This document shows positions 1 to 12,778 of a stretch of 64,000 nt of DNA, one piece after another. How positions within the stretch are numbered: position 1 is the stretch's first letter; each line of letters starts with the position of its first letter. The notes beneath the pieces were generated by a model, which made no database searches, had not been told where the DNA came from, and worked only from the letters and a program-made list of their open reading frames with translations. Where the stretch lies: positions 868,001-932,000 of the forward strand of contig NZ_CP038634.1 of NCBI RefSeq assembly GCF_004768545.1, given 5' to 3'. The position numbers and the translations under genes are program-made. The stretch comes from Cupriavidus oxalaticus. GTDB taxonomy: Bacteria; Pseudomonadota; Gammaproteobacteria; Burkholderiales; Burkholderiaceae.

Positions 1-378
1 CGGCCCCGGCGACGCCGAAAGCAGCGCGGCGGCCTTGCCGGCCAGCAGCGCGACGCCGGAGGTGCCGTCCTCCTGGGGCCGGCTGACCCAGTCCAAGGCG
101 TTCTTCAGCATTGCCGTGTAGCCGCCGTTGTACTCCGGCGTGGCAATCAGCAACGCATCGTGGCCGGCGAATTCGCGCTGCAGGCGGCGCGCTTCGGCCG
201 GCACGCCCTGCTCCGCCTCGTCATCGCCGTCGTAGAGCGGCAGCGCATAGTCCGCCAGCCGGATGGATGTCACCACCGCGCCCGCGTCGCGCGCGCCATA
301 CGCCGCGATGTCGAGCAGCTTCTGGTTAAGCGAGCCGCGACGCGAACTTCCGCTTACTGCAAGGATCCTGATACTCAC
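1..378 (-). CDS. NADPH-dependent FMN reductase family protein, 3' end cut by window edge
   Basis: Read directly from the complement: a GTG start at 378 with GGAG about 8 nt upstream opens a frame that stays open to the window edge (126 codons seen). The N-terminus shows SGSSRRGSLN, the phosphate-binding loop of the flavodoxin-fold NADPH:FMN reductase/azoreductase family, followed later by TPEYNGGY, the isoalloxazine-contacting motif of the same family. It lies 27 bp behind nbaB in the same direction and so is probably the next cistron. It could supply reduced FMN or act as an extra nitro/quinone reductase; which one cannot be told from sequence. The C-terminal third is outside the window. Confidence 0.8.
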   Translation of the reverse strand, partial: MSIRILAVSGSSRRGSLNQKLLDIAAYGARDAGAVVTSIRLADYALPLYDGDDEAEQGVPAEARRLQREFAGHDALLIATPEYNGGYTAMLKNALDWVSRPQEDGTSGVALLAGKAAALLSASPGP

Positions 379-405
379 TCGAATGCTCCGGAGCAAAGGT
401 TGAAG

Positions 406-927
406 TCATGCGGCGGGCGCCGCGCGGTACTCGATCTCGCCGCCAGGCAGGAAATACATCATCAGCGCCTTGCCCGTGACCGTCGGGAAGTGCTCGCTCA
501 TCGGCGGGAACACGCGCCAGCCCGCGCCATGCCCGCAGAACTGCGCGCCCGGTTCAAGCGGGACGATCATGTTGATCTCGCCCCGGGTGTGGCAGTGGTA
601 CTGGCCCATAACGTCGCGCAACAGCCCGCTTTCCACGCTCATGCCGGCAGTTTCCGGCGAGGGCTCGGCGATCCTGCCGCGCCGGTAGGTGGCACCCTCG
701 ATCTCGACATAGCCCGCCCAGCCCTCCTCCACGCCGAGCTGCAGCAGGCGGCACAGCTCCTGGTAAGGGCGAGTACCCGCGCCATATTCGCGGTTCAGAT
801 AGGCCTCGAGGTCCTGATCGAGCGGGCGCGAGCGAATCTCGTCGCACAGCTGACGCACCCATTGCAGCAACTCTTCCTTGTGCGGACCGTGCGGCAGCAT
901 CTGGCGCTCCTTCTCTGAATCCATCAT
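406..927 (-). CDS. nbaB: DUF4863-family hydroxylaminobenzoate mutase/lyase
   Basis: 173 residues, close to the usual length of the DUF4863 family, which contains 4-hydroxylaminobenzoate lyase (PnbB) and, as I recall it, 2-hydroxylaminobenzoate mutase (NbaB). Visible features are a helical N-terminus and a cupin-like C-terminal half with HCHTRGEI and the [15 protein letters not shown] stretch, which offer His/Glu metal-ligand candidates. The start was taken as the first of two adjacent ATGs, whose ATGA overlaps the nbaD stop, so the two are translationally coupled. Because every neighbour acts on 3-hydroxyanthranilate or its products, the likely reaction is rearrangement of 2-hydroxylaminobenzoate to 3-hydroxyanthranilate rather than the PnbB reaction to protocatechuate. 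Family assignment is firm; the exact reaction is inferred from context. Confidence 0.75.
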
Positions 928-1946
928 TCGTCTCCGCTGCCGTCGGCAGGCAAGTTGAAGAACCTGGCGGCATTGCCGCCGAGGATAAGGCGCCTGGCCC
1001 GCTCGCCCAGGTGCGGGTGATTCTCCACCAGGGCCCCGATCTTCTGCTCGCCAAGCGGATAGGGATAGTCCGAGCCGAGCAGGACCCGTTCCTCGCCCAT
1101 CACGTCCACAAGCAGGCGCAGCGCGCCTGCGTCGAATACCGCGCTGTCCACCGAGAACCGGTCCACGTACGACGACGGCAGGTTCGGACAGTCTTCGCGC
1201 ACGATATCCCGATGCAGCCAGGCGTTGTCGACCCGCCCGAGCAGGAAGGCGAAGCTGCCGCCGCCATGCGCGAAGCACAGCTTGAGCGAGCGCGGGATAC
1301 GCTCGAACGCGCCGGACAGGATAAGCGAGAGGATGCCCAGCTGGGTCTCGGCCGGCATGGCCACGAGCCAGGGCAGCATCCACCGCTTCATGCGCCCGTC
1401 GGTCATCATGTCCCACGGATGGACCAGCACGGGAATGCCTTCCTGCGCGCAATGGCAGAGAAAGCGGACCAGCGCTTCGTCATCGAGGTCCCGCGAACCG
1501 ACGTGGTTGCCGATCTGCACGCCGCGATGCCCGGCCGCGACGGCACGCGAAGCTTCGCGGCAAGCGAGCTCGATATCCTGCAGCGGCACCTGCGCCAGGG
1601 CCATCAGCCGGTCCGGCGCCACCGAGCAGAGCTCCAGCGCCTTGTCGTTCATCCGTTGGGCCCACTGCAGCGCCGCCGGGGCGTCGTAGCGGTAGCCGAA
1701 CATCACCGGCGTCGCGCACATCAGCTGCGCGTCGATGCCCTGTTCGTCCATCTGTTCAAGGCGCCGCACCGGGTCCCACAGGGGCCGGCTCACCGGCCGG
1801 AAGGGCCGCCCGTCCAGCATGATCATGCCGGACTCGCCATCCTCCGCCACGGCAAGCCACGGCACGCCGGGCTGGTCGGCGCGCTCCGCCTCTTCCCGCG
1901 AGATCGTGGGGAAGAAGTGGGCGTGCATGTCGATTCGCAATGTCAT
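924..1946 (-). CDS. nbaD: 2-amino-3-carboxymuconate-6-semialdehyde decarboxylase
   Basis: Amidohydrolase-fold decarboxylase, 340 residues, matching bacterial ACMSD in length. The zinc set is intact: H8 and H10 in DMHAHFF, H176 in HPWD and D293 in GSDYPYP, with catalytic-position H227 in FAHGGG; these sit one residue from the positions I recall for the Pseudomonas enzyme. It removes CO2 from the unstable ring-opened product of NbaC and so prevents spontaneous cyclisation to quinolinate, giving 2-aminomuconate semialdehyde for NbaE. It starts 6 bp after nbaG and overlaps nbaB by ATGA. Function is well supported by residues and neighbours. Confidence 0.9.
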
Positions 1947-1952
1947 AGCTTG

Positions 1953-10666: not shown

Positions 10667-10679
10667 AGTGTTCTCCATG

Positions 10680-11129
10680 TCATGGCTCGTGGGTCTGCGC
10701 TGCCTCGGCGCGGGGCGCGTAGGCAACGGCCTTGATCTCGATGGTCAGCAACGGATGCGGCAGCTGGTGGACGGCGACGGTCGTCCGCGCCGGCCCGGCT
10801 TCGTCGAAATACTCCGCATACACCTCGTTATAGCCGCCAAAGTCATTCATATTCACCAGAAATGTGGTGATCTCGACCAGATTGGCCAGGTCTGCGCCCT
10901 CCGCCCGCAGGATGTCGCGGATGTTCTCGATCACGGCTCGGGTCTGCGCCCGGATATCGACGCGGGACGTACCCATTTCGTCCACGGCCGCCCCGACGAA
11001 GCTGTTGTCGGGACGCCTTGAACTGGTGCCGGAAACGAACAGGAAATCGCCGGCGCGCACCACGTGGGGAAACCGCCCCCGGGGCGTGGCCTTGCCTTGC
11101 ACCAGCCGCGCCTGAGCAGACTGCTTCAT
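10680..11129 (-). CDS. nbaF: 2-aminomuconate deaminase (RidA/YjgF fold)
   Basis: 149 residues, Rid-family chorismate-mutase-like fold with [15 protein letters not shown] near the N-terminus and [13 protein letters not shown] in the second half. It hydrolyses the enamine of 2-aminomuconate to 2-oxohex-3-enedioate (4-oxalocrotonate) plus ammonia. Start ATG 11129 has ATGGAGC in front; the longer frame upstream lacks a ribosome site. Placement between the carrier gene and nbaC fits the deaminase rather than a generic RidA. Confidence 0.85.
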
Positions 11130-11176
11130 ATCAATGCTCCATTTACTTTCAGGTTGAGCGGGACACTGCCTGTGTG

Positions 11177-12778
11177 TCACTGGTTCACGTCGACGTCCTT
11201 GGTCTCCTTCAGCAGGAACATGCCGAGGACGACCGAGATGCCGCCTACCGCAATCGCGTACCACAACCCGCCCAGCACGCTGCCTGACTTGACCGCCAGC
11301 ACCGTGGACATGAACGGCGCCAGGCCGCCGAAGTAACCCGCACCGATGTTGTAGGGGATCGAGATCGAGGTGTAGCGCACCGCCGCCGGGAACAGCTCCA
11401 CGTAGTACGCGGACATCGGCCCATAGGCCATCGCGCCCCAGATCATCAGCAGGAACAGCAGCAGGTACATCATGGGCCGGTTGATTGCCGCTTCATCGGC
11501 CGCCGGGGGATAGCCCGCGGCAACGAGCGCGTCCCGATAGGCCTTCTCATCGAAGCCGGCCACCGGCTTGTCGCCGATATACGTCACCAGCGGCTCGCCG
11601 GCCAGGCCAGGCTCCACGCGGTAGGACAGGCCCGCCTGCGTCAGGAAGTCGCGCGCCTTGTCGCACGCGGTCTGAGTGCTGGAGAAAATGCTGTCCGAGC
11701 AGTCCGAAGACGCCACGCGGATGGTGACGGACTGCTGGAACTGCGCGAGGGCGGGATTCACCGCCTTGCCGAGTTGCGAGAAGATCGGCAAGAAGGTCAG
11801 CACTGCCATGCCGCAGCCGATCAGCACGATCCATTTCCGGCCGACCTTGTCCGACAGCCAGCCGAAGAACACGTAGAGCGGCAGCGAGAAGACCAGCGCG
11901 ACGACGAGATAGCTGTACGCCTGGCTGGACGGCACCTTCAGCGTCGACGTCAGGAAATACAGGACATAGAAGTTGCACGTGTACCAGACCACGCCGACCG
12001 CGGCCTGCGCGCCGAACAGGACCGCCAGCATCCGCCGCACGTTCTGGCCGACCATGAGGCTGTCGCGCAGCGGTGCGCTCGATGTGCGGTTTTCTGCCTT
12101 CATGCGCTGGAACACCGGCGACTCGGAAAGGGTCGTGCGGATGTAGGTCGATACGGCAAGCAGCAGCACCGACGCCAGGAACGGCACGCGCCAACCCCAG
12201 ACTGCGAAGTCCTCCGCGGAAATCCACAGCTGGCAGAGCTGCGTCACGGCCAGCGAAAGCAGGAAGCCGAATGTCGCCGTGGTCTGGAGCCAGCCGGTGG
12301 CATAGCCCCGCCGGCCGGATGGCGTATGTTCGGCGATGTAGGCCGCGGCTCCGCCATACTCTCCACCCAGCGCGAGCCCCTGCAGCAGGCGCAGCACGAT
12401 CAGGATGGCCGGCGAAGCCCATCCCAGGGTTTCATAGGACGGCAGCAAGCCGATGCCCGCCGTCGAAATGCCCATCAGCACGACCGTGGCAAGAAAGGTT
12501 GCCTTGCGCCCGGCCTTGTCGCCGAACCGTCCGAATACGACGGCACCTAGCGGCCGGATAATGAAGCCGATGCCGAATGTCGCCAGCGATGCGAGATAGC
12601 TGGCGGTTGAATTTCCGGCGGGAAAAAAGTGCGACGAAAAGAATATCGCCAGGCTTCCATAAAGGAAGAAGTCATACCACTCGAGTACGGTGCCGACGCA
12701 CGCGCCTACGACCACCTTCGCCTCTTCGCGCTTCGACGCGCCGTGCGCTCGCACATTCGCTGCTAGTTCGCTGCTCAT
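11177..12778 (-). CDS. MFS carrier of the metabolite:H+ symporter (MHS) family
   Basis: 533 residues with 12 predicted membrane segments. [16 protein letters not shown] at the first helix and [13 protein letters not shown] in the loop between helices 2 and 3 are MHS signatures (ShiA, ProP, PcaT relatives). Between the later helices there is an insertion of about 80 residues (roughly 350-430) with two cysteines in a SSDCSD...TACDK arrangement that could form an extracytoplasmic disulfide; such insertions occur in a subset of MHS proteins. First gene of the minus-strand nba block, so the likely cargo is the nitroaromatic acid. Start ATG 12778 has GGAGGAGAG in front. Confidence 0.85.

Follow-up and report, generated by a model that had tools for sequence, protein, structure and literature searches.

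The question raised by this locus is which compound a contiguous run of catabolic genes in Cupriavidus oxalaticus degrades and how those genes are controlled. The run lies in a 64,000-nt stretch of DNA (NZ_CP038634.1, positions 868,001 to 932,000; assembly GCF_004768545.1), referred to below as the window, and occupies the minus strand of its positions 1 to 12778. It is a complete nba/onb gene set, contiguous and read in one direction in the order MFS carrier, F, C, A, LysR, porin, E, H, J, I, G, D, B, and X3. Judged from its sequence, it is very probably a Cupriavidus catabolic cluster of the onb/nba type, acting on 2-nitrobenzoate, and this pathway reading is supported by homology. Profile matches of the open reading frames (ORFs) recovered every gene named in a preliminary description of the window, all on the minus strand and at or near the places given there. 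The features and their predicted functions, in order of transcription, are as follows.

12840..12914, minus strand: predicted NbaR-dependent promoter/operator 1, 5' of the carrier gene; kept in four Cupriavidus loci
11177..12778, minus strand: MFS carrier, probably for uptake of 2-nitrobenzoate (putative substrate); PF00083/PF07690
10680..11129, minus strand: nbaF, 2-aminomuconate deaminase (Rid family), ATG start; PF01042; PDB 6izh, E 9.3e-60
10118..10678, minus strand: nbaC, 3-hydroxyanthranilate 3,4-dioxygenase (3-HAO); TIGR03037 and NF009763 over cut-off; PDB 6vi5, E 2.5e-100
9442..10092, minus strand: nbaA, 2-nitrobenzoate nitroreductase, 216 aa; Flavin_Reduct PF01613; PDB 4z85, E 4.1e-109
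8454..9416, minus strand: nbaR/onbR1-type LysR regulator, ATG start; PF00126 and PF03466
7213..8340, minus strand: porin; PF13609
7099..7173, minus strand: predicted NbaR-dependent promoter/operator 2, 5' of nbaE; parts and spacing match element 1
5579..7069, minus strand: nbaE, 2-aminomuconate 6-semialdehyde dehydrogenase; PDB 4u3w, E 3.1e-260; TIGR03216 over cut-off
4755..5582, minus strand: nbaH, 2-keto-4-pentenoate hydratase; NF008461, 350.6 bits (cut-off, 350)
3808..4758, minus strand: nbaJ, acetaldehyde dehydrogenase (acylating), GTG start; PF09290, 205.9 bits (cut-off, 26.6)
2756..3796, minus strand: nbaI, 4-hydroxy-2-oxovalerate aldolase; TIGR03217, 582.9 bits (cut-off, 286)
1953..2759, minus strand: nbaG, 4-oxalocrotonate decarboxylase; best model TIGR03218, 215.2 bits (cut-off, 350.55); between I and D as in Cupriavidus sp. 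ST-14
924..1946, minus strand: nbaD, 2-amino-3-carboxymuconate 6-semialdehyde decarboxylase (amidohydrolase); PDB 6mgt, E 8.8e-157
406..927, minus strand: nbaB, 2-hydroxylaminobenzoate mutase, 173 aa; PF16155, 162.3 bits; groups with nbaA-linked proteins
1..396, minus strand: X3, NAD(P)H-dependent FMN_red-family protein, truncated at the window edge; PF03358

Identity of the NbaA and NbaB candidates

The preliminary description had proposed 9442-10092 and 406-927 as nbaA and nbaB. Phylogenies of both products were built, and neither fell among unrelated reductases or lyases. NbaA aligns over 216 of 216 residues, 154 of them identical (71%; E 4.1e-109), to PDB 4z85, which its depositors call "2-nitrobenzoate nitroreductase". 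A tree of 94 rows placed NbaA and 4z85 in one clade of 26 rows (support, 100/100; branch length, 1.08), made up of 22 proteins with nbaB in the same stretch, three without, and 4z85 itself; the other 68 rows lay outside, and NbaA did not group with unrelated flavin reductases. Because it shares this clade with 4z85, NbaA is taken to be of the 2-nitrobenzoate type.

NbaB belongs to PF16155, named PnbB in the Pfam version used and DUF4863 in many annotations, and its homologues are variously called 2-hydroxylaminobenzoate mutase, 4-hydroxylaminobenzoate lyase, or DUF4863. The family is present in 42 of 60 genomes of the genus and has two matches in the C. oxalaticus genome, one linked to nbaA and one to box genes. 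A tree was built from 53 rows, labelled beforehand by context and similarity, after seven had been dropped (one fragment, from locus L011, and six re-fetched duplicates). It held 22 nbaA-linked and 15 box-linked proteins and a third group of 16. The box and third groups were each supported at 100/99, and an eight-row set of nbaA-linked proteins holding the window NbaB was supported at 96/90. The candidate thus groups with nbaA-linked proteins, apart from the nitroreductase-linked (PnbB-like) and box-linked ones, with which it has the Pfam family in common.

To check these contexts, the fetched stretches were searched by tblastn. BoxC adjoins 14 of 14 box-type relatives. LysR query matches lie beside all 16 third-type loci, six of them only 52 to 56% identical, and a nitroreductase lies beside 9 of the 16 (short stretches); this is the PnbB type, beside LysR and often a nitroreductase. 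The one annotated third-type locus contains LysR, DUF4863, and nitroreductase genes and may be read as pnbR-pnbB-pnbA. No PF16155 gene linked to nitroreductase and LysR is present in the C. oxalaticus genome, in which both PF16155 matches were classified. The second of these (L084:9389-9925; C1 about 739888-740424) was considered as the mark of a 4-nitrobenzoate (pnb) locus and rejected, as it sits in a box (benzoyl-CoA) cluster; its neighbors, read from ORFs, are BoxC, BoxB, a BoxR-like gene, an aldehyde dehydrogenase, and a benzoate-CoA ligase. Linkage of PF16155 to box genes is already described in the available text of an earlier publication (PMC6449761).

Ring-cleavage and lower pathway enzymes

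Genes C to J of the 3-hydroxyanthranilate branch all lie within the cluster. The products of D, C, E, and F align almost full-length to solved enzymes of the expected names (PDB 6mgt, 6vi5, 4u3w, and 6izh, respectively), and those of C, E, I, and H exceed NCBIfam cut-offs, with the model passed by NbaE, TIGR03216, bearing the name 2-hydroxymuconic semialdehyde dehydrogenase. nbaC is the sole 3-HAO match in the genome; it has two possible ATG starts, the first of which was taken for 10118..10678. The two FAH-family genes could be separated by model, 4755-5582 as the hydratase (NbaH) and 1953-2759 as the decarboxylase (NbaG).

Several results weigh against the proposed pathway. The nbaA-linked PF16155 group as a whole is supported at only 74/15, with a warning from the tree program that two long branches meet, and NbaB has no solved relative in PDB at E up to 1. 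NbaH passes its model only narrowly (350.6 bits against 350), NbaG stays under the cut-off of its best model (215.2 bits against 350.55), NbaF passes no NCBIfam cut-off, and A, B, and D have no NCBIfam match of any kind.

Relation to known clusters

The comparison covered 24 loci whose NbaA is at least 60% identical, 18 of them drawn from the best 80 of 137 matches and six fetched separately; several are cut by the ends of their stretches. nbaB lies in the same stretch as nbaA in 21 of them (L011 has a 66-residue fragment), and all of A to J are visible in seven: L003, L004, L005, L008, L160, L163, and Pseudomonas agarici, extended as L165. The MFS carrier is 68 to 90% identical in eight of the 24 loci, the LysR regulator is 87 to 92% identical in the other Cupriavidus loci, and the porin occupies the same place in the Cupriavidus loci L003, L160, and L163. 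An nbaB copy at L163:539-967 (same-genus genome, C7) has one internal stop codon and is either a decayed gene or an assembly error. Pigmentiphaga-type loci (L010 and L013 to L016) carry A, B, and X3 without lower genes in the stretch, and each of the five genomes has a full-length C and a D homologue elsewhere.

The closest described cluster is that of Cupriavidus sp. ST-14, given in the available text of PMC5817917 as onbX1X2FCAR1EHJIGDBX3, credited there to Basu et al. 2016 and described as contiguous, codirectional, polycistronic, catabolic, and induced by 2-nitrobenzoate. The window matches it in genus, in the core order F-C-A-R-E-H-J-I-G-D-B-X3, in its single direction, and in its ten steps; compared with that published description, it differs in that a carrier gene precedes F and a porin gene separates R from E. 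Paraburkholderia terrae KU-15 likewise has all steps in one cluster, nbaFCTAREHGIJDB, with gene calls made by similarity (PMC9302171). It differs in gene T between C and A, in the lower order H-G-I-J, and in the anthranilate dioxygenase genes that adjoin the cluster (PMC9302171). In the four Paraburkholderia/Caballeronia loci examined here, the carrier stands just before A.

C. basilensis KF708 (L003) and a C. pauculus plasmid (L160) have the same genes as the window in the same order, carrier and porin included, at 76 to 92% protein identity. The C. pauculus copy (NZ_CP044066.1, 10360-24436) is on a 249-kb plasmid typed as conjugative, and a gene for a tyrosine recombinase lies directly past X3. 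This setting points to exchange between strains; the window copy, in contrast, is on a 2.41-Mb contig. Pseudomonas sp. KU-7 reportedly has nbaEXHJIGFCDR plus nbaA and nbaB, the same enzymes as the window in a different gene order. The order in P. agarici, E..HJIGFCDR, equals the one reported for KU-7, with nbaA about 6.5 kb and nbaB about 5.5 kb upstream of nbaE and with A, B, and X3 within 7.2 kb; unlike in the window, nbaA and nbaB are divergent at one end.

The preliminary description had implied that the joining of nbaA and nbaB to the remaining genes was new. This does not hold, since they are already joined in ST-14 (PMC5817917), KU-15 (PMC9302171), and P. agarici, so the arrangement is neither new nor limited to Cupriavidus. 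The cluster is in this respect an ordinary further copy of a published nitroaromatic pathway.

Four loci are rhizobial: Rhizobium bangladeshense plasmid p3 (L162:7901-14875), a Sinorhizobium mexicanum plasmid (L169), and, by tblastn, L020 and L168. Here NbaB, X3, and NbaA have LysR, 3-HAO, aspartate dehydrogenase, and aldehyde dehydrogenase as neighbors, together with a DHDPS-family protein and an ABC transporter. ACMSD, aminomuconate deaminase, and nbaG to nbaJ were not found in the annotated rhizobial stretches, and the genome of L020 has a 3-HAO and, with E up to 1e-60, nothing that matches ACMSD; these loci may use a different lower pathway for 3-hydroxyanthranilate. A literature search on 3-hydroxyanthranilate together with aspartate dehydrogenase gave only papers off the subject, judged by title. 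Plasmid 1 of Polaromonas sp. JS666 (L161), typed as conjugative, carries nba genes in which an ABC transporter replaces the MFS carrier; nbaA is adjoined there by an IS3-family transposase.

A repeated promoter-like element

A 75-bp promoter/operator-like element, consisting of a LysR-type T-N11-A box, TTTGATTAT, and CTAGACT, precedes both the carrier gene and nbaE. Element 1 has a perfect inverted repeat, TATTCC-N5-GGAATA, at 12890-12906 (the T-N11-A dyad), followed by GATTGATTAT and a -10-like TTAGACT, with GGATTGATTAT lying between the dyad and the latter. Element 2 has its dyad region at 7149-7165, followed by GGATTGATTAT and a -10-like CTACACT, with the same parts and spacing. In an alignment of carrier upstream regions, the element 1 block was kept in four Cupriavidus loci, the first half-site being TATAAC in L003 and L160. 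The pattern TATTCC-N23-GGATTGATTAT has two exact matches in the window, against 0.01 in shuffled sequences with up to three mismatches allowed. A looser core pattern has exactly two matches in the whole 8-Mb genome, both at the cluster, and its backwards control has none there.

A matrix was built from 14 sites in nine loci, and each locus was omitted in turn. These leave-one-out scores were 37.9 to 70.6 bits at 19 places in the nine loci (55.4 bits for element 1 and 68.0 for element 2): two places each in the window, L003, L160, and L163, three each in L004, L005, and L008, and one each in L009 and L012. All 19 are upstream of the carrier gene, nbaF, or nbaE, so the element recurs in eight related loci besides the window; the next best score in the nine loci was 0.1. 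Control searches over both strands of 62 loci (2.29 Mb) gave a best score of 6.6 bits, and reversed sequences one of 1.7. With the full matrix, weaker forms of 17 to 29 bits turned up in four stretches, two from Variovorax and one each from Polaromonas and Pseudomonas, and the stretches of Pigmentiphaga type, of rhizobia, and of P. agarici had no score above 16. There is some circularity in the full-matrix scores, since the 14 training sites were chosen by pattern from nine related loci; the leave-one-out scores and the recurrence at nonhomologous places answer this in part.

Promoters activated by LysR-type regulators typically have a T-N11-A dyad near -65 with such spacing. On the assumption that CTAGACT contains the -10 hexamer, our own count puts the dyad centre near -64 and TTTGATTAT at about -40 to -32. 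The dyad and the spacing are conserved; the distance to the start rests on start sites estimated near 12834 and 7093.

The element would predict two or three co-induced units. One point against two units is that the ST-14 paper reports polycistronic transcription and, in its available text, assumes a single promoter upstream of onbF (PMC5817917); such transcription does not exclude a second promoter and does not need one. The same text states that the promoter, the operator, and the role of the regulator are not known, and no on-topic literature on nbaR/onbR1 with nitrobenzoate was found beyond that paper. It is unlikely, but deserves weight, that the element is not the NbaR operator, either because another regulator binds it or because the nbaE copy is inactive and the cluster is one operon. 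Shared descent of the nine loci could produce such conservation, the ST-14 genes are called polycistronic, and only weak copies of the element, or none, were found in loci with an NbaR of just 50 to 54% identity or with none detected in the stretch. Descent does not readily account for the element at nonhomologous places within one genome (before the carrier gene and nbaE here; before F, the carrier gene, and E in three Paraburkholderia loci), nor does that reading fit the occurrence of the core pattern nowhere else in the 8-Mb genome or a geometry typical of LysR sites. NbaR is the favored candidate for binding the element.

X3 at the cluster end

The X3 gene extends 207 bases beyond the window (full gene, L083:11795-12397). 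X3 is present in 20 of the 24 nbaA loci and near nbaB in 20 of the 20 whose stretch reaches far enough. The exceptions are L006, which ends just past nbaB, and L011, L012, and L019, which also lack a whole nbaB. This steady company suggests that X3 serves the first two pathway steps. An NbaB-X3 fusion, considered as further evidence for X3, was weakened on inspection, as a single frame occurs in only one of the four rhizobial loci (L162), in which the PnbB match stops 10 positions before the profile end. nbaB and X3 are annotated as separate genes with an 11-base overlap in S. mexicanum, and by our own arithmetic their matches are in different frames in the remaining two loci; an indel or a sequencing error would explain the fused frame in L162.

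Alternative substrates

It is very unlikely that NbaA and NbaB have shifted in specificity and that the true substrate is another ortho-nitro aromatic acid or a substituted one. NbaA does differ from 4z85 at 62 of 216 positions, and the porin and carrier are placed differently from the ST-14 description; however, the gene set and core order equal those of ST-14, whose reporter, according to the available text, answered 2-nitrobenzoate alone among the compounds tried (PMC5817917).

The preliminary description had also argued that kynurenine genes are absent and that the substrate is therefore a nitroarene rather than tryptophan. Their absence is true of the cluster but false for the genome: kynureninase and tryptophan dioxygenase genes stand side by side on contig 2. 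The nitroarene is supported by the NbaA and NbaB trees, whereas the argument from missing kynurenine genes is incomplete; that a kynurenine route to anthranilate is encoded counts against 2-nitrobenzoate as the source. Other bacteria also use C, D, E, and F to degrade tryptophan. No kynurenine 3-monooxygenase was recognized among the 18 highest-ranked FAD_binding_3 proteins of 41 places, a negative limited by the fact that several of the 18 pass no cut-off, that no family was assigned to L108 at E up to 1e-60, and that NCBIfam may or may not hold a model for this enzyme. Two uncertain FAD_binding_3 proteins are nearest to 6-hydroxynicotinate 3-monooxygenase among solved structures. The enzyme is likely absent from the genome and, if so, the tryptophan branch ends at anthranilate.

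That genes C to J serve 3-hydroxyanthranilate derived from tryptophan, with NbaA and NbaB secondary, is accordingly hard to credit: the genome has the two kynurenine-route genes and four of the enzymes suit that route, but those two genes lie on a different contig, the cluster itself includes nbaA and nbaB both here and in each of the seven loci showing the whole of A to J, and the ST-14 cluster is described as induced by 2-nitrobenzoate (PMC5817917). A tryptophan-dioxygenase-like protein of 302 aa is also encoded about 24 kb left of the window (C1:843823-844614; L086:1450-2355), at 237.3 bits against a TIGR03036 cut-off of 390.7.

Genomic setting and neighboring genes

The genome is 7.97 Mb in seven contigs. 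Base composition gives no clear sign that the cluster was imported, as its GC content is 66.5% against 67.4% in the remaining window and 63.9% in the left flank, and the 64-kb window contains no tRNA genes. The distribution of NbaA contrasts with this unremarkable composition: an NbaA-like protein (E up to 1e-40) occurs in 25 of the 60 genomes of the genus, but it is at least 81% identical in only four, C. oxalaticus included, and the best matches in the other 21 are 42 to 46% identical.

A gentisate-type cluster at window positions 14925-20171 comprises fumarase-like, cupin dioxygenase, GST-type isomerase, FAH hydrolase, and 3-hydroxybenzoate 6-monooxygenase genes, the last (L104) at 663 bits against a cut-off of 459; positions 14930-18887 also occur on a C. 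pinatubonensis plasmid at 87.9% identity. On contig 7, places at 5835-6926 and 84376-85467 (L091, L092) and at 24564-25655 (L093) were noted. The tfdB gene at C7:5835 is 100% identical to copies on a C. pinatubonensis JMP134 plasmid (87,688 bases) and a Paraburkholderia hospita plasmid, and a second place scores equally; contig 7 looks like a 2,4-dichlorophenoxyacetate (2,4-D) plasmid.

Proposed pathway and regulation

In the pathway proposed, the carrier and porin would bring in 2-nitrobenzoate, NbaA would reduce it with NADPH to 2-hydroxylaminobenzoate, and NbaB would rearrange this to 3-hydroxyanthranilate. Ring opening by NbaC, decarboxylation by NbaD, oxidation by NbaE, and release of ammonia by NbaF would follow, and NbaG, NbaH, NbaI, and NbaJ would yield pyruvate and acetyl-CoA. 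X3 might re-reduce nitroso or quinone-imine by-products. NbaR, a LysR-type activator most likely answering to 2-nitrobenzoate, would bind the two operator copies and drive a first unit, carrier-F-C-A-R-porin, and a second, E-H-J-I-G-D-B-X3; as nbaR lies within the first, it would activate itself. We modestly favor a small NbaR regulon, with the 75-bp module heading each unit (two in Cupriavidus and up to three in Paraburkholderia), together with X3 as an overlooked third enzyme of the upper pathway. With the module at the head of each unit, upper, ring-cleavage, and lower genes would be induced together.

To a pathway already published, the analysis adds the candidate operator, the constant association of X3 with nbaB, and a division of PF16155 into three. 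As that family sorts into nbaA-linked, nitroreductase/LysR-linked, and box-linked groups, the automatic name "4-hydroxylaminobenzoate lyase" leaves the aromatic acid unspecified. According to its paper, the ST-14 bioreporter was constructed with no knowledge of the promoter-operator or of what the regulator does; the conserved element supplies exact coordinates for a predicted operator.

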